In this document: positions 78 to 35,805 of the stretch, piece after piece | Layout: each line of letters begins with the position of its first letter | Position numbering within the stretch: the first letter of the stretch is position 1 | Virus record (IMG/VR): IMGVR_UViG_3300010392_001225 | Location: 1 to 35,805 of that record | Origin: a virus | Reading direction: 5' to 3' (one strand) | DNA length: 35,805 nucleotides | The notes under the pieces: model-generated | The model's database searches: none | The model's input: the letters and a program-made list of their open reading frames with translations, nothing else | What the model was told of the DNA's origin: nothing | Program-made: the position numbers and the translations under genes

Positions 78-98
78 ACGAAAACGAATGTAGCCGGC

Positions 99-133
99 CG
101 CGCGGTTTGGCAAAAAGTGTCGCGCGGTTTGTC
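99..133 (+). repeat. Tandem candidate transposase-binding sites (right end of phage)
   Basis: CGCGCGGTTTGGC (99-111) and CGCGCGGTTTGTC (121-133) are near-identical 13-mers spaced 22 bp apart, about two DNA turns. They lie between the last phage gene (stop at 140) and the host-type hairpin. An inverted near-copy sits at the opposite end of the element. Phage Mu carries several similar transposase sites at each end, so these are the likely MuA-type binding sites. The function is inferred from position and symmetry. Confidence 0.6.
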
Positions 134-139
134 ACAGAC

Positions 140-1251: not shown

Positions 1252-4068
1252 TTAGACGGCTCCCACGGCGGTGAGGTAGGTGTTGAGGCGGGTGTGGAGG
1301 TTCCCGTGCTCTGTGCCGGTCAGCGACCCGCCGAGGAACGCGGCCGATAGCTGGGCATCGGATTGAGAGCCCGCCAGGTCGCTTGTGTTGGCGGCAAGCA
1401 GATAAACTGAGAAGGTCGACAGCGGGCCGGATGCGGCGGAACCGGTATTCTCAAGGGCACCGTTCCGGTAGGTATGGAAGGCTGTCGCGCCGCTCCGATC
1501 CGCCACGAGCAACCCCGTCGCGACTTCGGAGTCGGTGCCTCCATCCAGCAGCCCTCCGTTCGGCCCCCACACCCGCCACTCGACACCATCGCTGCGGCGC
1601 TGAATTCGGGTGTAGGTAGAGGATGACGAACTGTCCCCGGTGCCTAGATAGATGTCGCCATTGTCAGATGCGACTTCGCGCACCCAGATACCGGCGCTCG
1701 CGCTGTCCTGTGCAAAGTTGACGCCGTCCGTGCCGGGCACGAACTGAGTGTCCAGATAGGTCGACGTATTGTCGCCCTTGAAGCCGCGATCTGCCGTGAA
1801 CACCGGTGCATTAACGGGCAGGATGGGAGAGCCTGCGGGGTCCATCCAATTCACCGTCGCCGACTGGCTGTCGTGCGCTGCCAGCACCCACAGAGCGTCC
1901 AGCTTGGCCCAGATCCCATCCGCCTTGAGCCCGTCGACCAGATCTTCGATCAGCGATTGGCGGGGCCCCGAAGGCGTCGAGGACATGGCGTTGATGATCG
2001 CTTGCGCGTCCGGGTCCATGAAGACTGCGGCCGTGGTGAAGCTCCCGGCGAGCGACCGTGCGCTGTCGCCATAGGTGGCGCCCGTATGCATCACCCACAC
2101 ATAGTAGGTCGTGGACGTCGCCAGATTGCCGATAGGAATGGTCCAGCTCGTCAGGTTCACGGCATCGGCCACCGACTGCACAACAACCGTTTCACCAGCC
2201 GCGTCCGACGTGACCGTCCAGCTCGCCGCAGTCTGCGTGTCCACACCGTTGACCACGGCGAAGGCGCTGGACTCGATTGTCGGAGATTCGCCTACATCCG
2301 TTGCACCGTTCACAGGGCTGGCAATCGAGGGCCGGGCGACATGCTGTTCCAAGTAATCGGCCGGGTCATCGCCGCTCTGGATGTAGATCTGCCAGCCGGT
2401 GCCATCGTGCTCGAACATCACGACGCCGCCGACATTGGTCAGCCACGTGTCGTAAGGATCGCCCGGCACGATCACCTTGTTCGTCTCGCCCCAGCTGCGA
2501 CCGCTATCGTGCAGCTCGAACCGATCGCCCTGCACGGCCCCCGCCGGCAGGGCGGACAGCGTAACCGGGCCACCGGCCGTGGACACCGGATAGGCCGAGC
2601 CGATCTCCGGCGCAAAAGCCGCCGTCTGGATCTCGGCAACCTGCATGCCTCCGCCGGTCGGCGGGTCGATCCACTCGACATTGAAATCCGTACCGTCGAC
2701 CTTTGCGGGGATCTGGCCGGCCGTGCCGCCCGCCGGCAGACCGGGACCGGGGTCGCCTTTCAGATCGGTGAGCGCGATCAGGTTCTGCCAGGCGCCGGCG
2801 CCAAGCCGCCATTGAATATGCGTCGCGGTGACCTGCAGGCCGACTTCCTGCCCGTCATCACCGTCAATGCCATCCGTACCGGCCAGATCCGCCAGCGCCA
2901 CGATATTGACCCAGGCACCTTCGCCGCGCCGCCACTGGATATGGGTGGCGCTGGCCTGGACGCTGATTTCCTCGGCATCGTCACCGGGCGGGCCCTGGAA
3001 TGGCACCGCGTCCGACCAGTCGCCGGACGTGCCGCTGTTCTTGATGTAGAGCACGGCCGGCCCGCCACCACCGGCGGCGCCGTCCAGCGCAAGATAGGCG
3101 AAGTCTTCCGCCTCGCCGTCATGGGCGGACCGGGCGGCATATGTGCCCGACGCATCCCAGTCGAACGGATCGCCCTTCTCGCCTTTCAGGTCAGCGAGCG
3201 CGATCAGGTTTTGCCAGGCACCGGTGCCGATCCGCCACTGGATATGCGTGGCCGTGACCTGCAAGCTGACCTCTTCGCCTGTCGGCCCCTCCAGAAGCGA
3301 GAGCGCGACCAGATCGGTCCATTCCGCAGCACCGACTTCGCGCCACTGGATATGTGTGGCGGTGGTCTGCAGCTCGATCGAATTCCCCGGATCGCCCTGA
3401 TTGCCCTTGAGGGCAGACAGCGCGATCAGGTTCTGCCAGGCGCCGGTGCCGAGCCGCCATTGAATGTGCGTTGCCGTCACCTGCAGGCCGACCTCCTGCC
3501 CGTCATCACCGTCGGCACCCGCCAGATCGGCCAGCGCCACGATATTGACCCAGGCACCTTCGCCGCGCCGCCACTGGATATGGGTGGCGCTGGCCTGGAC
3601 GCTGATTTCCTCGGCATCGGCGCCAGGCGGACCCGTTATGTCCGACAGTGCGATCAGATTCTGCCAGGCACCGGAGCCGAGGCGCCACTGGATATGTGTG
3701 GCGGTGACCTGCAGGCTGACCTCTTCGCCGTCATCGCCGGGCGGCCCCTGCAAGACGGCCTGCGCCGCGCCCCATCCGGCCTCGGTTTTCGGACCATAGA
3801 AAGCCTTGCCCTGCACATCGAAAGCAAACGCACCGACCTCGCCCGTCTCTTCATCCGGCACGCCATTGGACAGCAGAATACCGTCGATCCGGGCGAGCAC
3901 CTCGACCAGCCGCTGGGCCAGAACGGGATTGGACGTATAGGCCCCCACCCAATTGCCCAGATCGGTCACGAAGGCCGACACAAAGGACGACTTGTCCAGC
4001 GTGACGCCAGCCGCCTCCAGCTCGTCGGCCAGGGCTTGCGCGAATTGCGTGTGATTGATGGTCGCCAT
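1252..4068 (-). CDS. Tail fiber with seven collagen-linked repeats and a lectin-like tip
   Basis: The protein has 938 residues. Residues about 1-110 are helical and probably attach to the tail. Seven repeats of about 37 residues follow, each holding the core THIQWR and an A.W.NL.AL strand, separated by short Gly-Pro-Pro/Gly-Asp collagen-like links. A 60-residue insert divides repeats 5 and 6. Residues about 690-938 look like a concanavalin/LamG-type beta-sandwich, a usual receptor-binding tip. The start overlaps the J-like gene's stop in a TGATG. DNA of the repeats is nearly identical in places (2891-2980 equals 3530-3619). Host recognition is the likely role; the receptor cannot be read from sequence. 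Confidence 0.82.
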   Translation of the reverse strand: MATINHTQFAQALADELEAAGVTLDKSSFVSAFVTDLGNWVGAYTSNPVLAQRLVEVLARIDGILLSNGVPDEETGEVGAFAFDVQGKAFYGPKTEAGWGAAQAVLQGPPGDDGEEVSLQVTATHIQWRLGSGAWQNLIALSDITGPPGADAEEISVQASATHIQWRRGEGAWVNIVALADLAGADGDDGQEVGLQVTATHIQWRLGTGAWQNLIALSALKGNQGDPGNSIELQTTATHIQWREVGAAEWTDLVALSLLEGPTGEEVSLQVTATHIQWRIGTGAWQNLIALADLKGEKGDPFDWDASGTYAARSAHDGEAEDFAYLALDGAAGGGGPAVLYIKNSGTSGDWSDAVPFQGPPGDDAEEISVQASATHIQWRRGEGAWVNIVALADLAGTDGIDGDDGQEVGLQVTATHIQWRLGAGAWQNLIALTDLKGDPGPGLPAGGTAGQIPAKVDGTDFNVEWIDPPTGGGMQVAEIQTAAFAPEIGSAYPVSTAGGPVTLSALPAGAVQGDRFELHDSGRSWGETNKVIVPGDPYDTWLTNVGGVVMFEHDGTGWQIYIQSGDDPADYLEQHVARPSIASPVNGATDVGESPTIESSAFAVVNGVDTQTAASWTVTSDAAGETVVVQSVADAVNLTSWTIPIGNLATSTTYYVWVMHTGATYGDSARSLAGSFTTAAVFMDPDAQAIINAMSSTPSGPRQSLIEDLVDGLKADGIWAKLDALWVLAAHDSQSATVNWMDPAGSPILPVNAPVFTADRGFKGDNTSTYLDTQFVPGTDGVNFAQDSASAGIWVREVASDNGDIYLGTGDSSSSSTYTRIQRRSDGVEWRVWGPNGGLLDGGTDSEVATGLLVADRSGATAFHTYRNGALENTGSAASGPLSTFSVYLLAANTSDLAGSQSDAQLSAAFLGGSLTGTEHGNLHTRLNTYLTAVGAV
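2740..3740 (-). repeat. In-frame tandem repeat array in tail fiber gene
   Basis: Seven related units of about 111 bp encode the THIQWR repeats. The longest identical pair is the 90 bp at 2891-2980 and 3530-3619, offset by 639 bp (213 codons). Recombination between these copies would delete or duplicate 213 residues without breaking the frame. Confidence 0.9.
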
Positions 4069-14366: not shown

Positions 14367-15173
14367 CTACCCTCGCGACTGGATGATCAGCTCGCCAGCC
14401 GCGTGACTGCCGGACGCCGCAATGGAATAGTTCACCCGAGCGCCCTCGATGTCGAAGCGCTCGAAAATTTCGCGGATCTCCGGTCGATCATTGATCGACA
14501 AGATGAACCGACCTTTGAGCCGACCCAACCGGTCGGCGAGATCCGCAAACTCGGCGCGGCCGAACATTTCTTTCCCATAGTCGTCTTCGCAGCCCCAGTA
14601 AGGCGGGTCGAGATAGAACAGGGTGTCTGGACGGTCGTAACGGTCAATCAGCGCCTGCCATGTCAGGTTCTCGATCACGACGCCGGCAAGGCGCTCGTGT
14701 ACCTCCTCGAGCAGCGGCGCCAACGTCGTCAAATTGAAGCGCGACGGCCGGCCGTGACTGACGCCAAAACTGCGGCCGTTTACCTTCCCGCCGAAGGCAA
14801 CGCGCTGCAGGTAAAGAAATCGGGCGGCGCGCTCCAGGTCGGTGAGGGTCGTAGGGTCGCAGTCCTGCAGGCGCTCGAATTCGCGGCGGCTGGTGATCTG
14901 GAATCGCAGCGTATCCATGAACTGGGGGTAGTGCCGCTGCAGTATCCTGAACAGGTTCGCCACGTCGCCGGAGAAGTCGTTGATGATCTCGGACGGCGGC
15001 GCCTTTGATCGGCGCAGGAATATGCCGCCCATCCCCACGAACCCCTCAGCGTAGGTCGTATGGGGGATCGTTTCGATAATCGCGCAGATCCGTTTCGCAA
15101 GGTTGCGCTTTCCGCCAATGTAGGGGGCGGGTGTACGAGATGGCCGAACCGGCCGCATGCTGTGAGCAGTCAT
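14367..15173 (-). CDS. DNA adenine methylase (D12 / Dam family)
   Basis: The protein has 268 residues. PYIGGK (residues 17-22) and AEGFVGMGG (42-50) form the SAM-binding site, and DPPYWG (189-194) is the catalytic motif IV of N6-adenine methylases; the order fits class D12. It probably methylates phage DNA to avoid host restriction, or alters host gene control. The ATG at 15173 has GGAAGG upstream. The gene lies inside the connector module, preceded by about 145 bp of non-coding DNA with two hairpins, which suggests it was inserted as cargo. The target sequence cannot be told. Confidence 0.9.
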   Translation of the reverse strand: MTAHSMRPVRPSRTPAPYIGGKRNLAKRICAIIETIPHTTYAEGFVGMGGIFLRRSKAPPSEIINDFSGDVANLFRILQRHYPQFMDTLRFQITSRREFERLQDCDPTTLTDLERAARFLYLQRVAFGGKVNGRSFGVSHGRPSRFNLTTLAPLLEEVHERLAGVVIENLTWQALIDRYDRPDTLFYLDPPYWGCEDDYGKEMFGRAEFADLADRLGRLKGRFILSINDRPEIREIFERFDIEGARVNYSIAASGSHAAGELIIQSRG

Positions 15174-15206
15174 TCCCTTCCTTCCGGAATCGTGAAACTC
15201 ACCCTT

Positions 15207-15222
15207 CGCCCCAAATGGGGCG
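15207..15222 (-). promoter_or_regulatory. Hairpin upstream of the methylase gene
   Basis: CGCCCC (15207-15212) pairs with GGGGCG (15217-15222) around a 4-nt loop, about 35 bases before the methylase start. The leader may form an RNA structure that controls translation. The role is unknown. Confidence 0.4.
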
Positions 15223-15281
15223 GCGGATGAAAGCATGTCCGGTGCTTGGTGGGGGTCGTGACGCCAATCTTGAGCCCCGCT

Positions 15282-15302
15282 GCCAGGGCAATGCGCCCTG
15301 GC
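15282..15302 (-). terminator. Hairpin after the small gene ending at 15319
   Basis: GCCAGGGC (15282-15289) and GCCCTGGC (15295-15302) form a perfect 8-bp stem with a 5-nt loop, just past the stop of the small gene upstream. There is no U-run on the minus strand, so it could be a weak terminator, an RNA-processing site or part of an old insertion junction next to the methylase gene. Confidence 0.4.
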
Positions 15303-15318
15303 CATCCGCTGACGTTTT

Positions 15319-15507
15319 CTAGTCCATCCAGGCGAGCATCTCGTCGGCACTCCCCCAGTCGTCGGGAAAGAAGGCCATCTTGCCTTCGGGCCCTGTTGTC
15401 CCAGTCATGATGCGCTCGGCGATCATGTCTTCCTCGGCAGGGGTCAACTGGATGCAGATCGGCTGATCCGCAGTGTCATGCCACAGGTCACCAATCTTCA
15501 CACGCAT
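15319..15507 (-). CDS. Small hypothetical protein
   Basis: The protein has 62 residues, is acidic, and has a PDDWGSADEMLAWMD C-terminus. Its start shares a TGATG with the head-closure gene before it, so it is translationally coupled. I do not recognise the family. It could be a small connector accessory protein or phage cargo. Confidence 0.5.
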   Translation of the reverse strand: MRVKIGDLWHDTADQPICIQLTPAEEDMIAERIMTGTTGPEGKMAFFPDDWGSADEMLAWMD

Positions 15508-23422: not shown

Positions 23423-25031
23423 CGGCCGGAATCCAGTTCTGATCGAGCGGGGTGCGGCCGGGCCGCATATCGCCGGGCTGGTTCAACGGCCGCCATTGCG
23501 AGCCGTCGCCAGCGAAGGTCGCAGCAAAGAAGTTCAGGGTGGCGACGCCGGCATCACCGTGGCGCTTGCCGCCGTCGGTGCCTTTGGTCCGGATCTCGCT
23601 GGGCACTTTGGCAATGCCGCCGACGATCTGGAATTGGCGCAGGTCGTTGCGAACATCGAGATCGGCGGGCAGCAGGATTGTCCTGTCCTCGAACGCCGCA
23701 CGGAAGCGAGGTGTGTATTCACGCAGCCACTCGTTCGAGGGCATCAGCTCCGTAATACGGTTCGCGCCGAACCGTTGGCGGGCCTCCTGCGCGAGCACCA
23801 TACCGTTGCCGTTTGCGTCCAGCACGCCGCTCGCCAGCGAGCCGACATACTGCACCAGCCAAAACAAGGCCTGCTTTTGCTGATCGTAGGGGCAGGCGCG
23901 CAATTCCAGGATCAGCGGAACATGCCGCTTGAGATCCTGACCGACGAAGCCGATCGGGAACGCACTCCGGTCCTGGCGCATGGCGAAGTCACCGCCAAGA
24001 TGCCACGTCAGGCCTTGCTCACGGAACCGGTCGAGAACCGGAGCAACCTTCTCCTGCAGGAAGAGCGCCATCTCCCCACGGCGGGCACTCTCCGGCATGT
24101 CGACAAAGCCTTCATGTGGCGGCTCCCAGCGCACCACCTTGTAGTCGGTCGTGCTGCACGCCTCGATCCAGGCCAGCGGCAGAAGTACGCCGTCACCTTC
24201 ACGCGGAATGGCATCCAGCTCTTCGCGCATCGCCTCGACCCGGCTGCCGTATGACTTGCGGACGCGGCGATACCATTCGTCCTTGCCTTCCGGTGTCGCG
24301 GTCCATCCCCGGATCAGGCAGACACGTTCATAGAGGCCGTTCGCGACAGCATCGTCGAATGTGATGGTGTGGATGGAGTAGTCGTATTGTCCCTGCCGGC
24401 TTTCCTTGATCAGCTCGTTGAACGGGTTCAGATCGCCGTTGTGCGTGGAAATAATCCGTATCGTGCCGCCCCAGATGAGGAGCGCGTTGCAGGCGTCGAT
24501 GACAGCGGCGACATTGCGATGGAATGCCGCCTCATCGATCACGACCCGGCCCTGAAGACCGCGGATATTCGCCGGATTGCTGGACAAGCCCACGATCTGG
24601 TGACCGGACGCAAACCTGATGCGATAGGCGGCGATATCCTTGCTCGACCCGTCCTCCTGGACGTCGGTGAAGACAAACTCCTCGACGTCCAGGAGCTCCT
24701 TCGCAACGGTCTTAGCGAAGCGCGCCGCAACGGCGACGAACTCAAGGCCTTTGTCCTTGGTATCGCCGATATAGTAGGTGTGATCCCCCCCCGCGCTTTT
24801 CGCCGCCATGGCGGTCAAGGTGGAGTCTAGGGCCTCAGCGAACGTGATGCCCGTTCGACGGCCTTTCTCGGCGAGCTTCAGCGGCGCTTGGTCAGCAAGC
24901 CAGTCGCGCTGGTGCTGCATGAGAATGCCATCGCCCAGCGGGTCCAGCCCCTCCGGCGGCAACATGCCAGGAATCGCGTCGTCGATCGGGGAGCGCGGCG
25001 GTGCTTGGTCGGTAGTCGGACGATCGGTCAT
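23415..25031 (-). CDS. Terminase large subunit (Mu gp28-like)
   Basis: The protein has 538 residues. The ATPase part has a Walker A-like EKGRRTGIT (55-63), a Walker B VVIDEAAF (163-170) and the coupling motif ISTHNG (194-199). The nuclease part begins near GGDFA (346-350; Asp348 is a likely metal ligand), with another Asp in KRHGDAG near the C-terminus. It packages DNA into the head. An ATGA overlap links it to the small subunit gene, as in Mu. Mu-type packaging of integrated DNA is expected but not shown here. Confidence 0.93.
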   Translation of the reverse strand: MTDRPTTDQAPPRSPIDDAIPGMLPPEGLDPLGDGILMQHQRDWLADQAPLKLAEKGRRTGITFAEALDSTLTAMAAKSAGGDHTYYIGDTKDKGLEFVAVAARFAKTVAKELLDVEEFVFTDVQEDGSSKDIAAYRIRFASGHQIVGLSSNPANIRGLQGRVVIDEAAFHRNVAAVIDACNALLIWGGTIRIISTHNGDLNPFNELIKESRQGQYDYSIHTITFDDAVANGLYERVCLIRGWTATPEGKDEWYRRVRKSYGSRVEAMREELDAIPREGDGVLLPLAWIEACSTTDYKVVRWEPPHEGFVDMPESARRGEMALFLQEKVAPVLDRFREQGLTWHLGGDFAMRQDRSAFPIGFVGQDLKRHVPLILELRACPYDQQKQALFWLVQYVGSLASGVLDANGNGMVLAQEARQRFGANRITELMPSNEWLREYTPRFRAAFEDRTILLPADLDVRNDLRQFQIVGGIAKVPSEIRTKGTDGGKRHGDAGVATLNFFAATFAGDGSQWRPLNQPGDMRPGRTPLDQNWIPADA

Positions 25032-25624
25032 GAGGCACGCACCCCGAGGAACTCGCGGCGCAGCTTCGCGATGCTGTCGGCCGACAGGCCCGCTTCGCGC
25101 GCAACGACCTCGGCGCGATCCGCGTTTTCTTCCAGCCGGTCGTCAAATTCGTGTTCCAGCTCCCGGCGATAATCTGCCGAAAGCTTCTGCGCGCTGGTGA
25201 CGTCTTTGATGGCTCGGGCGAGTTCCATAACATCCTTGGAGTTGAGCCCGCCGCCTTCGGCGATCCGGAATGCCGCGACCTTCAGCATCTCGGACAATGC
25301 AATCGTCATCTTGTCCGCGCTGTCGACGCCCAGCATGTCCGCCAGTTCCATCGAGATCCGGCGCGTTTCATCCAGCTGTCGGAATTGGGTCGCTTTGCGA
25401 ACCGTATAGCGGGAGAACGCACTCTTGCTGACAGATCCGATGCCCTTGTCGGCCAGCCGGGCGTTGAACTCGTCCAGCAGGTCGATCTGCAGCCTACGGC
25501 CTTCACGAAGCTCTTCATTCAGCCACAGGATATCGGCGTCGGCCTCCTCGGGCAGGAGATCGATCGTCGATAGCCGACCGCGCCCCTGTCGGCGCTGCCT
25601 CTTGTTGCGGCTGCGGCGCGACAT
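25028..25624 (-). CDS. Terminase small subunit (Mu gp27-like, DUF3486)
   Basis: The protein has 198 residues with a basic N-terminus (SRRSRNKRQRRQGRGRLST), then LLPEEADADILWLNEELREG and SKSAFSRYTVRKATQ, matching the DUF3486 family to which the Mu gp27 small terminase belongs. The N-terminal part resembles an HTH that recognises the pac end. The ATG at 25624 was chosen because it begins the conserved part and avoids overlap with the gp26-like gene. Confidence 0.85.
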   Translation of the reverse strand: MSRRSRNKRQRRQGRGRLSTIDLLPEEADADILWLNEELREGRRLQIDLLDEFNARLADKGIGSVSKSAFSRYTVRKATQFRQLDETRRISMELADMLGVDSADKMTIALSEMLKVAAFRIAEGGGLNSKDVMELARAIKDVTSAQKLSADYRRELEHEFDDRLEENADRAEVVAREAGLSADSIAKLRREFLGVRAS

Positions 25625-25626
25625 CG

Positions 25627-25923
25627 TCAGCCCTCCAGACTCGGCCGGCGAACGCCTTCGAGAAAGCTGCGGCGCTCGACATGGTCGAGACCTTGGCGCG
25701 TGAGATCGGCAACCAGAACAGAGCCGACTTCGGTGATCCGCACAGCGCCCAGCTCTTCGAGCTTCCGCAGCTGTGTGCGCACCCATTCGCGCGAGCGCTT
25801 ATGACCGAAGATTTCGAGAACATGCGCCAGCATGGTCTCCGACAGCCGGTGGTCATTCTGACCGGCCAGCTCCTTCAGGATAACCAGTCGCGCATCTTCG
25901 ATGAGGTGATCCTCAAACGCCAT
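25627..25923 (-). CDS. Mu gp26-like winged-helix protein
   Basis: The protein has about 98 residues with helices and a small beta-wing (LVILKELAGQNDHRLSETML, then RTQLRKLEELGAVRI), as in winged-helix proteins. Mu-like phages have such a gene (gp26) between the DUF2730 gene and the small terminase; order and size agree. The ATG at 25923 has GGAG ten bases upstream; the GTG at 25932 has it too close. A DNA-binding role is likely but the target is unknown. Confidence 0.7.
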   Translation of the reverse strand: MAFEDHLIEDARLVILKELAGQNDHRLSETMLAHVLEIFGHKRSREWVRTQLRKLEELGAVRITEVGSVLVADLTRQGLDHVERRSFLEGVRRPSLEG

Positions 25924-30565: not shown

Positions 30566-30867
30566 CGCTGCACCCGTTGAAATGCTTCATTGAGCACTAC
30601 GGACGCCTCGATTGCGCTGTGGATCGAGGCACGCTCGTTGTGTGTGTTCACAGCCTCAGAGAGGCGACGTCCTGCGCGGATCGCCGCTTCTATTGCCGAG
30701 ACGAGAGACGGCTCTCCGGCATAGCCGGTCAGCAACGTTTGGTTTTCCGACTGTTCCAAGCCGGATTTGCGAACCAAAGCGTCCCAGAGCCCTCTCGCCT
30801 CATCCAAGGAAAGGGTGGGCACTTCATCCAGAAGTGGCCCTCGCGGCGTGGAGTGGAGCCGGTCCAT
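30562..30867 (-). CDS. Hypothetical early protein
   Basis: The protein has 101 residues, mostly helical, with LSLDEARGLWDALVRKSGLE and a C-terminal NERASIHSAIEASVVLNEAF. It starts in a TGATG overlap with the MuB stop, so it is probably coupled to it. No family is recognised. In Mu this region holds small genes such as kil and gam, but no Gam-like sequence is visible here. Confidence 0.5.
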   Translation of the reverse strand: MDRLHSTPRGPLLDEVPTLSLDEARGLWDALVRKSGLEQSENQTLLTGYAGEPSLVSAIEAAIRAGRRLSEAVNTHNERASIHSAIEASVVLNEAFQRVQR

Positions 30868-31844
30868 CAGACCGCCTCCACATCACGGTTCGCCCAAGCC
30901 GCTTTGAGATCTGCCAAGGTCGGCGCGCGACCATGGCCCTCGGCGGTGAGGCGCGCGAGCTTGACCGTCATGTCAATTTGCCCGAGGGCGCCGGGCTTCA
31001 GGCCGACACCACGCAGGAACTCTCGCTGCTTCGGGTCCGTGATCGCCCAAGCATCCAAGAAATTGTCGATGTCGGTGACGGTGGGCTTGTCTCGGCGCAA
31101 CCGGCGGAAAACTCGCCGCTTGAGCTGGCCGTATTTGTCGCCCTGTCCCCAGCCCGCAAACCGGCTGTAGGTCTCCCGGTTGCCGACCAGCGCGACACCG
31201 CATCGATAGAAGTCGACAAAATGGCGAAGCTGATCAATCGCCTCGTCGGTGAGGTTCTGGGCTTCGTCTACGATCAGAAGCGAGCCCGCACCAACACGCT
31301 CAATGCGCTTGCCGATGGCCTGGACGAGTTTGCCCGCAGACTTCTCTTCGACGTTCAGTGTCGCCGCGATGGCCGTCAGCATATTGTGGATGGTCCGCGA
31401 GTGCGGGCTCATCGTTACGAGAAAGCTGTTCGCCCGCGTGGAGACATAGTGATTGCACGCAAGCGTCTTGCCGTTGCCGGCATCCGCGGTGATCATCACC
31501 ATTGCCGGCATGACCTGGGCAATCTGAAGCGTCGAGACAACGCTTCGTGAGAACTCTAGGTCGAGGAATTCCGGGCTCGCAGGGACGCTGGCGGTCAGCT
31601 CCTCAACGGCGTCGGCTTGGTCGAGCCAGTTGCGGATCTTCGAGCTGACCGCATCATAATTGCCTGCGTACTTTCCGCTCATCCACTGGCTGAGCGTTCC
31701 TTGTGCTACGCCCGATCGGCGCGAAATTTCTGCCTTCGACCAACCACGGGCTTCGGCGATTTGCTCAACGCGTTTGACAAGGGCGACCCAGCCTTCCGCG
31801 TCAGCTCCGGTCGGGGCCGTGGTTGAAGTTGCGATATCTACCAT
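30867..31844 (-). CDS. MuB-like transposition ATPase
   Basis: The protein has 325 residues. An N-terminal HTH (SKAEISRRSGVAQGTLSQWM, about 36-55) is followed by an AAA+ ATPase core with Walker A GNGKT (123-127) and Walker B LLIVDE (189-194). MuB picks target DNA and activates MuA, and protects the phage from self-insertion. It is encoded directly downstream of the transposase, as in Mu. Length is close to Mu B (312 residues). An 81-bp gap with a strong hairpin separates it from the transposase gene. Confidence 0.93.
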   Translation of the reverse strand: MVDIATSTTAPTGADAEGWVALVKRVEQIAEARGWSKAEISRRSGVAQGTLSQWMSGKYAGNYDAVSSKIRNWLDQADAVEELTASVPASPEFLDLEFSRSVVSTLQIAQVMPAMVMITADAGNGKTLACNHYVSTRANSFLVTMSPHSRTIHNMLTAIAATLNVEEKSAGKLVQAIGKRIERVGAGSLLIVDEAQNLTDEAIDQLRHFVDFYRCGVALVGNRETYSRFAGWGQGDKYGQLKRRVFRRLRRDKPTVTDIDNFLDAWAITDPKQREFLRGVGLKPGALGQIDMTVKLARLTAEGHGRAPTLADLKAAWANRDVEAV

Positions 31845-31925: not shown

Positions 31926-33854
31926 TCAGTCCCGCATCAACCTCCGGCCCATCATCCCGACCACGTTGGCGAAGGCGTCCTCGTCCGCGTCAGTCCATTC
32001 GGGCTGTTCAGAAGGGGGGCGTTTATTCGCATCGGCCGATGCGAGCCGGGTGACGGCCGGATAGACCGGATCATCGGCGTGATCGGCCATGGGCGGCGCG
32101 TAGAGACGCGCCAGCTCCTCGGGCGACATGGTGACGTGCATGTCGGCAAGTTCTTTCTGCTTCTTGAGAAATTCGCGCCGGGCGCGCTCGTGGCGGCGGG
32201 CCGCTTCAGCGTCCAGAAAGTTGACTTCCTCGATCGCCTCGGCGTCACACAGCTTCACGCCATCCATGGCGAATATTTCGACAGGCCGGGTCAGGTTGTC
32301 TGGGTCAAAGCGGACGCAGACCTTTTTGCCCGCGTGCTCCACCATCGCCTCGGACCAATAGCGGTTGCCCATCAGATGGATTTCGCCAGACGGCTTTCTA
32401 GCGGTGATGGACTCGGCCATCAGCAGCCAGAGAGCGCGTTGGGCCGGTGCCGCTCGGCGAACGACTGTTTCCGGGCGGCTCATCGACTCTTCGAATGTCT
32501 CATCGAAGCTGCGGCCCTTGGATGTTCTGGTGTTCCGACCGGTCCTCGCGTTGTGCTCCAGCAAGCATCCATGCGCCGCACGCCGGAAGGTCTCGTAGTC
32601 GACGGCGCGTGCGCCGTAGTTGTCGGGCTTCGCGGTGGGGCTATTGCCGGTGTAGGCGCCATGCAGGAACGGGTGCTTGGCGATATCATCGCAAAGATCG
32701 CGGAAGGCGCGCTCGATAGGCTTTGACTGGCCGGAGTATGGCTTTGCCCAATGGACCTTGACGCCCAAGAGCGTCAGCAAACCATCCGGCTCATCATCTC
32801 GAATCTTGAACCTGAAGCGGCTCTTCTGACCGCCCGTGATCCACTTCGAAGCGAAGGACCGGCCGTTGTCCAGGACGATGTGTTCTGGAATGCCGTAACG
32901 CTCGATCATGTCGCCGATGGCTAGGCGCACAGCGACCTTGTTTTCGGTCTCGTCGATCCGCCACCCGACAAACTTTCCGGAATAGACATCCTGCAGCGCC
33001 GTCAGCACCGGCCGGAAGACCTTTCCGTCCGGCTTTTTCACCATCACATCGAAGCGGTGGCCGTCCATGTTCACGACCTGCATGGCGTGCAGATCGTTCT
33101 TCACGCGCAGCTGCGGGGGGTACAAAGCCTTTGCGGAATCCCGGCCTTGGCGGCGCAGGGCCACCACACTTTGCTCAACCTCCGCCGCTAGTCGGCGGCG
33201 CAGCGCGCGGCTGGACGGGATCGGCGACCAGCCGTGGGCCTCGGCCAGCTTCTTGAGGCGACGATAGCAGGCGTTGAAGCTGGGCTGCTCGGGCCGAAGG
33301 TAGTCCGCCTTGATCGTGGCCAGAGCCTCTGGGTGACATGGCCCGAATTGGGTCGTGGGTCGGTATCCGGGGACAAGCGTTGGCAGCCAGTCGGCGTGAG
33401 GGACAGCTTGTGCCGCCGACCACCAGCGCTGCAGTGACCGAGCGGACACGTTGGAGACAATTGCCTGCTCCGCAATCGCGTCGCCCTTCTTCGCGCCGCC
33501 CTTCACCCGAGCGGCAACCGCTTCGACGGCAGCCAAGCGTTCGGCGGCGATGTCCCTGTTCTTCTGCGATGACTTGTTAAAGGCGTCCCAGGCGGGTGTG
33601 TTCCGGGTCTCTGGCTCCGTCACCAATGCTTTGGTGCGTATATGAGCTTGGGCTTCGGCGCGCATCAGCGCGCCGCGGACGCGCTCCGGCCAAAGCGAGA
33701 CATGATACTCCCAGCCGCGTTCGGTTTTGCGGGCTTTTCCGTCCAGCTCGCGCCAACCGGACCGGAGCGCGACACGCCGCCAGCCTTCAGCAGTGGCAGG
33801 GTGTCCAGCAACCGGGTGAGCGAGCGCGTCGGAGATGGTGAACCACTCACGCAT
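31926..33854 (-). CDS. MuA-like DDE transposase
   Basis: The protein has 642 residues from the ATG at 33854. The N-terminus (REWFTISDALAHPVAGHPAT, W-rich) is the Mu DNA-binding wing; HTH domains follow, then the catalytic core with Asp264 (NMDGHRF), Asp329 (IVLDNGRSF) and Glu381 (GQSKPIERAF). The spacings, 65 and 52, are close to those of MuA (Asp269, Asp336, Glu392). The C-terminal helical part would contact the MuB-like ATPase. It cuts and joins the phage ends during integration and replicative transposition. The start overlaps the Ner-like gene by eight bases. Confidence 0.97.
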   Translation of the reverse strand: MREWFTISDALAHPVAGHPATAEGWRRVALRSGWRELDGKARKTERGWEYHVSLWPERVRGALMRAEAQAHIRTKALVTEPETRNTPAWDAFNKSSQKNRDIAAERLAAVEAVAARVKGGAKKGDAIAEQAIVSNVSARSLQRWWSAAQAVPHADWLPTLVPGYRPTTQFGPCHPEALATIKADYLRPEQPSFNACYRRLKKLAEAHGWSPIPSSRALRRRLAAEVEQSVVALRRQGRDSAKALYPPQLRVKNDLHAMQVVNMDGHRFDVMVKKPDGKVFRPVLTALQDVYSGKFVGWRIDETENKVAVRLAIGDMIERYGIPEHIVLDNGRSFASKWITGGQKSRFRFKIRDDEPDGLLTLLGVKVHWAKPYSGQSKPIERAFRDLCDDIAKHPFLHGAYTGNSPTAKPDNYGARAVDYETFRRAAHGCLLEHNARTGRNTRTSKGRSFDETFEESMSRPETVVRRAAPAQRALWLLMAESITARKPSGEIHLMGNRYWSEAMVEHAGKKVCVRFDPDNLTRPVEIFAMDGVKLCDAEAIEEVNFLDAEAARRHERARREFLKKQKELADMHVTMSPEELARLYAPPMADHADDPVYPAVTRLASADANKRPPSEQPEWTDADEDAFANVVGMMGRRLMRD

Positions 33855-34125
33855 GCGGCAGCAGCTCCCGCGCTTTCGCCATGGTTTTGGCGAGGGCCAC
33901 ACCGGGGTCGTCTTCGGTCAGCACGCCGCGTTTAAGACCCAGCACGACCGCAACGCGGTGGCTGTTGCCTCGCTTACAATTGCTGTCGCCATTGAGAACC
34001 CGATGCACCGTCGCCGGGTCGACACCCAGAGCGATCGCAAACTGGCGGATGCTCAAACCCGCGCAGTCGAAGGACGCTCGTGCGGTTGCTCGCTCCTGGG
34101 GAGAATTCATTGGGCTCGTGGACAT
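33847..34125 (-). CDS. Ner/Cro-like HTH regulator
   Basis: The protein has 92 residues with an HTH at about residues 25-47 (LSIRQFAIALGVDPATVHRV). It is the first gene of the minus-strand lytic series and faces the repressor, the place held by ner in Mu, where it shuts down early and repressor promoters. The fold resembles lambda Cro/XRE rather than being provably Ner itself. The ATG at 34125 has no strong ribosome site; a second ATG lies at 34110. Confidence 0.72.
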   Translation of the reverse strand: MSTSPMNSPQERATARASFDCAGLSIRQFAIALGVDPATVHRVLNGDSNCKRGNSHRVAVVLGLKRGVLTEDDPGVALAKTMAKARELLPHA

Positions 34126-34906: not shown

Positions 34907-35221
34907 ATGACGCCCGAACAATATCTCATGATCGAAACCCGTGTTTCCGCCGAGGCTCGCAGCATGGGCGTGGCCTATTTGCTTTGGTTTTTCCTCGGAG
35001 TGTTCGGGGCACACCGGTTTTTCCTCGGTCGCCCCGGAACGGCCTTCCTCATGATCCTCGCCTGGGTTGCCTTCGTGGTCCCAGGCTTCGTCTGGTGGGT
35101 CGTAGATGCCTTCCTCATTCCCGGAATGATCAAGCGCGACAACGACAGGCTCCGTAGCCGTCTCCAGACCGAGATTTCCGCGCTGTCGGCCCAGGCCTCA
35201 CCTCAATCGCAGCCGGCCTGA
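34907..35221 (+). CDS. TM2-domain membrane protein (probable moron)
   Basis: The protein has 104 residues. GVAYLLWFFLGVFGAHRFFL and GRPGTAFLMILAWVAFVVPG, then WWVVDAFLIPGMI, match the TM2 domain: two hydrophobic helices with a conserved short turn, GAHRFFLGR. Its role is unknown in most bacteria. It lies outside the repressor, between it and the phage end, on the repressor strand, where genes expressed in the lysogen are often found. AGGGGAA stands before the ATG. It could instead be a host gene if the phage end lies further left. Confidence 0.72.
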   Translation: MTPEQYLMIETRVSAEARSMGVAYLLWFFLGVFGAHRFFLGRPGTAFLMILAWVAFVVPGFVWWVVDAFLIPGMIKRDNDRLRSRLQTEISALSAQASPQSQPA

Positions 35222-35387: not shown

Positions 35388-35539
35388 TCGCCTCGTGCGT
35401 TCGGGTGCGTGGATGAAATTGGTTAAATGGGCTTTGAACACGCTATACTTAGCGTTTGAAGGGGCCTCGAAGCCATTCGAACGGATTTTGAACCCATCGC
35501 CCCTGCCTGGGCCTAGGTTGCACGATTTCTCGAAATTGC

Positions 35540-35552
35540 GCCAAACTGCGCG
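35540..35552 (-). repeat. Inverted copy of the end repeat (left end of phage)
   Basis: GCCAAACTGCGCG read on the minus strand is CGCGCAGTTTGGC, differing at one base from the repeat at 99-111. It stands next to a CA at 35554-35555, so the end would read TGACGCGCAGTTTGG inward. This opposite orientation is expected for the two ends of a transposable phage. Only one clear copy is visible on this side. Confidence 0.55.
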
Positions 35553-35805
35553 TCATGCTGAAATCCCGCTTCTTCTTGCGTGATCCCGCGGCAACCCGCT
35601 GATTTCGCGTCAATTATCGCCTCAATCCCGAGGTCCCCGGATATTCCCGGCATTTGCCATACCGCGTGTCACCGTACACGCGCAGCGGCCACTCAAGGCC
35701 TGCTCACAGGCCAGGCTCCGCCGCGCGCCGGTGCAGGGGCGTCCACAAACCGCAGACCGGCGAGCCGTCTCCGCTTGTCCAGGCCAGGCGCGCCCAGGGC
35801 GCCGC

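Follow-up and report, generated by a model that had tools for sequence, protein, structure and literature searches.

Predicted transposase sites at the two ends of a Mu-like phage, with a 10-bp-phased GGGA array beside its left end

The tandem 13-bp repeats near the beginning of the window, by which we mean the whole 35,805-nucleotide stretch of DNA that was analyzed, are almost certainly the cores of two sites, termed R1 and R2, that would be recognized by a MuA-family transposase at the right end of a Mu-like phage of 35,590 bp (positions 89 to 35678). The left end carries a predicted site L1 at 35652-35673 and, farther inside, a predicted site L2 at 35536-35557. The genes of the element lie mostly on the minus strand, as does the element in our orientation, with base 89 as the Mu "right" end and base 35678 as the "left" one. 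Docking sites that mark the exact ends are ordinary for Mu-like phages. In the present case they fix the ends exactly and give a predicted recognition sequence for an uncharacterized member of the Mu transposase family.

As an earlier note on this DNA had reported, the sequences at 99-111 (CGCGCGGTTTGGC) and 121-133 (CGCGCGGTTTGTC) are exact tandem 13-mers with a spacing of 22 bp. Read inward from position 89, the right end consists of ten bases opening with TG (TGTAGCCGGC) and then the core CGCGCGGTTTGGC. The right end of the element has two abutting 22-bp sites on the plus strand, with the predicted R1 at 94-115 (6-27 from the right terminus) and the predicted R2 at 116-137 (28-49 from the right terminus). 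The R1 and R2 sites of Mu also abut, are also 22 bp long, and also lie at 6-27 and 28-49. The register of R1 is that of the Mu-type L1 annotated at 11-27 in D108, and the Mu register is likewise equal. Unlike Mu, the window element shows no third right-end site.

At the other end of the window, an inverted copy of the motif is present at 35540-35552 (CGCGCAGTTTGGC, one mismatch), and the earlier note had taken this copy as the terminal partner of the repeats. A second inverted copy, overlooked in that reading, is located closer to the end of the contig, at 35656-35668 (CACGCGGTATGGC, two mismatches) and forms the core of the predicted L1 (minus strand, 6-27 from the left terminus). Read inward from 35678, this end again has ten bases opening with TG (TGTACGGTGA), followed by CACGCGGTATGGC. 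Both termini open with TGTA, and the site core begins at position 11 in each. TG..CA termini with predicted transposase sites are present at both ends of the element.

The closest relative of the element is a prophage of Maricaulis maris DSM 4734, which is collinear with the window and whose transposase is 81% identical. The left end of this prophage reads TCGGT and then TGTTGTGTGA followed by CGTAGGGTTTGTC (L002:8188). Its right end, which is on another contig and was located through the flank in the related genome G071, reads TGTAGCGCGC and then CGCCCGGTTTGGC AAATTGTGC CACCGGGTTTGTC, bordered by TCGGT. The TCGGT at both ends is a 5-bp target duplication. Comparison with an empty site, a check proposed in the earlier note, was possible for this prophage, and the unoccupied locus in G071 aligns up to the terminus (82% over 467 bp, stopping one base short of it). 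Thus, the M. maris prophage displays a duplication, an empty site, a TG terminus, a 10-bp offset, and a second site at +22. The window element has the geometry of these duplication-verified ends (TG, 10 bp, site, and a second site at +22), and the M. maris cores CGCCCGGTTTGGC and CGTAGGGTTTGTC differ by a few bases from those of the window. When the ends of the two phages are aligned, the M. maris layout corresponds to R1, R2, and L1 of the window, with the left terminus at 35678.

The same alignment bears on which inverted copy is terminal. It is highly improbable that the copy at 35540-35552 is L1 and that the element ends near 35554 with TGACGCGCAGTTTGGC, as the first reading had it. Although this copy is the nearer of the two to R1 in sequence (one mismatch) and is directly preceded by TG, the position aligned with the verified left terminus of M. 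maris is 35678 rather than 35554, and TG stands 10 bp ahead of the core at every verified end. Moreover, M. maris keeps a similar sequence at the matching inner position (123-144 from its left terminus), and the conserved spacer between L1 and L2 would fall outside an end at 35554. A terminus near 35554 is thus contradicted by the M. maris alignment. Judging from its sequence and position, we read the copy at 35540-35552 as the core of an internal L2-like site (35536-35557, minus strand, 122-143 from the left terminus) that is not terminal and is comparable to Mu L2; Mu likewise has L1 at 6-27 and an internal L2. The earlier note had allowed that the true ends might be found elsewhere, with the repeats lying well inside the element. 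This is what is seen for the copy at 35540, whereas the right-end repeats are at a true end.

The boundary between positions 88 and 89 is backed independently by host DNA. Positions 23-88 of the window match Maricaulis genome G072 with 97% identity over 66 bp, and the match stops exactly at 88. Past this match, the G072 sequence, an unoccupied copy of the locus, continues into an apparent gene start. The host flank outside the right end (1-88) consists of an interspersed Maricaulis-type repeat plus ACGAA, whereas the host flank outside the left end (35679-35805) begins with CGCGC and ends in another Maricaulis-type repeat. Thus, a 5-bp target duplication, which the earlier note had proposed to look for, is absent from the window (ACGAA vs CGCGC), although it is present in M. 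maris (TCGGT) and in two further relatives described below. Each flank of the window carries a different Maricaulis-type repeat. Most probably, the flanks on the two sides derive from separate insertion events, as would be expected of a phage that is replicating or packaged. The duplication would also be missing from a rearranged lysogen or after a faulty assembly, but either is less likely. The interspersed repeats at the contig ends (1-88 and 35764-35805) recur throughout Maricaulis genomes, and this points to a host related to Maricaulis.

The case for the sites rests on position rather than number, because the 13-mer is not enriched over the whole window: within 3 mismatches, 49 copies were found and 55 were expected, which is no commoner than chance. 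A matrix built from the three M. maris sites only was run over both strands of the window, and its top three matches are 35652-35673 (minus strand), 116-137 (plus strand), and 94-115 (plus strand), the best being L1, which aligns with the M. maris left end. The scores of these sites are near the maximum obtained with random sequence (mean 14.1, largest 18.3 of 30); the strength of the result is therefore that all three fall at the predicted termini. If the repeats were direct repeats of the operator or promoter type, or GC-rich matches arising by chance, with no tie to transposition, the lack of over-representation at 3 mismatches would be unsurprising, but we consider this very unlikely, given that the position and spacing of the sites are kept in relatives, that their inner half varies together at R1, R2, and L1, and that the host boundary is exactly 10 bp outside the R1 core.

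The element encodes a MuA-family DDE transposase of 658 amino acids (31926-33902, minus strand; PF02914, 2e-56; PF09039; PF09299), in which the catalytic triad D280, D345, and E397 is identified by alignment to the solved Mu transposase (4fcy, E 6e-95). It also encodes a MuB-family transposition protein, an AAA ATPase with a MuB C-terminal domain (30867-31844, minus strand; PF09077, 1e-18; AAA_22). The earlier proposal that the repeats are sites for a transposase at an end of a Mu-like element is therefore borne out both by these MuA and MuB homologues and by the M. maris ends, verified by the 5-bp duplication and the empty site. The repeats also supply the concrete recognition motif that was envisaged, whose position is matched by the M. 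maris-only matrix; however, the transposase is a member of the MuA family and not of a new type. By analogy with Mu, transposase subunits would bind at L1, R1, and R2 and pair the two ends, the transposase would nick at the TG termini, and MuB would supply target DNA.

Other genes also correspond to a Mu-type set, including those for GemA, DUF3164, a Gp27-type small terminase, portal, protease, and tape measure, and the window further encodes a large terminase, a major head protein, a tail terminator, and tail fibres. At 35,590 bp, the element is slightly short of the ~36-39 kb usual in Mu-like transposable phages. The window constitutes a stand-alone virus record, and when its positions 1-25000 were compared by megablast with the phage collection, no match was obtained. 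The MuB homologue carries an N-terminal helix-turn-helix besides its AAA domain. A gene for a small membrane protein with a TM2 domain (34907-35221) is situated between the repressor and the left end, and because this DNA can be aligned with M. maris and L007 at the equivalent position, it is a phage gene. A DNA methyltransferase gene (14367-15350) resides within the head-tail gene block, and an adenine methylase is similarly placed in Microcystis phage Mwe-Yong1.

A blind search, in which TG ends had to have identical 5-bp flanks and the right end a 22-bp tandem, recovered the prophage of M. maris and those of G130 (duplication AGCGG, 38,893 bp) and G034 (duplication GTCAG, 36,361 bp), with best scores of 47, 45, and 46, respectively, vs 31, 35, and 36 for the next-best unrelated pairs. 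The ends of the more distant prophages G141 and G142 were not found by this search. G130 and G034 have the same terminal layout as the window, and an R2-like second copy resides at the same place in all three recovered prophages. The outer part of the site is alike in the four phages (TGTAGCGCGC at the right end, TGTNNGGTGACAC at the left), whereas the inner half differs from phage to phage but is common to all sites of one phage. This pattern is as expected of a site that evolves with its transposase, and may offer naturally occurring pairs of transposase and site for studies of specificity.

The right-end pattern common to the window and M. maris gave no match in an exact scan. When IMG/VR was scanned for the tandem 13-mer, a single contig was returned, L045 (IMGVR_UViG_3300038988_000505), with the match at 3342-3387, and we reckon that about one match would be expected by chance in a collection of this size. 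In L045, a TG lies 10 bp outside the tandem 13-mer, tRNA genes (tRNA-Lys) are located just beyond it, and the transposase is only 26% identical.

Mu and D108 have in common with the window element MuA and MuB, TG..CA termini, a Gp27 small terminase, and a phased GGGA array. However, the Mu site consensus YMyNwRAARYRCGAAAR is unrelated to CGCGCGGTTTGGC of the window, and the Mu transposase is ~37% identical to that of the window. The tail genes of the window match families of the long-tail siphovirus type, and not those of a contractile tail. The Rhodobacter phage RcapMu is, like the window element, an alphaproteobacterial transposable phage, and in its record attL1 is annotated as belonging to a set of three imperfect repeats that the transposase may recognize. 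The Sinorhizobium phages StopSmel and Aussie have transposases ~42% identical and small terminases 42-45% identical to those of the window. Their left-end spacer is nearly identical text to that of the window (ATTATCCGGGGA..TCGGGG) and their right end begins TGTAGC, but their inner site sequence, CGATTTTCCGGAA, is different.

Alignment of left ends drew attention to GGGA recurring every 10 bp. In the window, this phased GGG(A) array occupies the spacer between L1 and L2 (35565-35648, minus strand), with GGG starting at 31, 41, 50, 82, 92, and 112 from the left terminus. The array is found in the window, Mu, B3, Sinorhizobium and Vibrio phages, and many IMG/VR phages, at the left end only. Among eight phages whose ends were defined without using the array, 24 of the 47 GGG pairs that are 5-34 bp apart are separated by exactly 10, 20, or 30 bp, vs a mean of 5.7 and a maximum of 16 in 2000 block shuffles. 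At the corresponding place in the right ends of these eight phages, no such phased GGG pair is present.

The array was also used to scan IMG/VR, with a pattern consisting of TGTA, 24-30 bases, and then four GGGA at a period of 10. The raw numbers of matches are unremarkable (33 at period 10, 29 at period 11, and 106 at period 12, the last being codon-phased and hence a poor control for counts), and only the link to a transposase stands out. A PF02914 transposase is present in 15 of the period-10 contigs vs 0 of 44 for the period-12 control, and in all 15 it is encoded ~2.7-6.5 kb downstream on the same strand. Within the loci themselves, Mu-type transposase homology was detected in 17 of the 33 with period 10 but in none of the 29 with period 11 or the 106 with period 12; some of the queries in this comparison came from the period-10 contigs themselves, and the unbiased test is the count of PF02914 contigs. 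We found no description of the phased array in the openly accessible literature, which mostly leaves out older Mu work, and its novelty is not established.

Packaging of Mu starts at the left end, and the array is confined to that end. The Mu pac site, in work by Groenen and van de Putte in 1985, was reportedly placed at about nucleotides 35-58 of the left end. A Gp27-type small terminase (PF11985; in the window at 25028-25786, minus strand, 2.7e-36) is encoded by all clearly array-bearing phages tested, which are the window, M. maris, G130, G034, StopSmel, Aussie, Vibrio 1.028, Mu, B3, Mwe-Yong1, and L009; the assignment in Mu and B3 was taken from record annotation and, for B3, also from a Pfam match. 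B3 belongs to this set even though its transposase is of another family (PMC8705779). Unlike the window element, RcapMu has DUF1804 in place of Gp27 and a left end without the phased array, and the same is true of D3112, although these two are the only DUF1804 phages in the comparison. Because the array tracks Gp27 and is absent with DUF1804, a packaging site is favored over a transposition site. We thus lean slightly toward the view that the Gp27-type small terminase recognizes the array as its pac site, although vB_ThpS-P1 has Gp27 yet carries the array only as a weak GGA/CGG version.

A role in the transpososome, in which the array would bend the DNA or dock HU and thereby help to join L1 to L2, is possible but less probable. 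The 10-bp phasing would suit DNA bending, and the HU site of Mu corresponds to the 74-bp spacer that separates L1 from L2 (PMC3820752), but such a role explains the presence of the array in B3 and its absence from D3112 and RcapMu less simply than does the terminase. For the packaging site, we regard as evenly balanced the broader proposal that the array serves transposable phages as a conserved packaging signal, which Gp27 would read with one helical turn per contact and which would be lost when DUF1804 replaces Gp27. If this is true, the left ends of such phages could be found from sequence alone. A left-end DNA feature tied to the type of small terminase would also make the packaging signal of a large phage group directly testable.

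In the record of Mwe-Yong1 (L097; MZ436628), a left-type terminus with a phased array is located at the far end, ~13 kb beyond the transposase and adjoining the protease gene. This placement may mean that the deposited genome is rearranged or wrongly joined.
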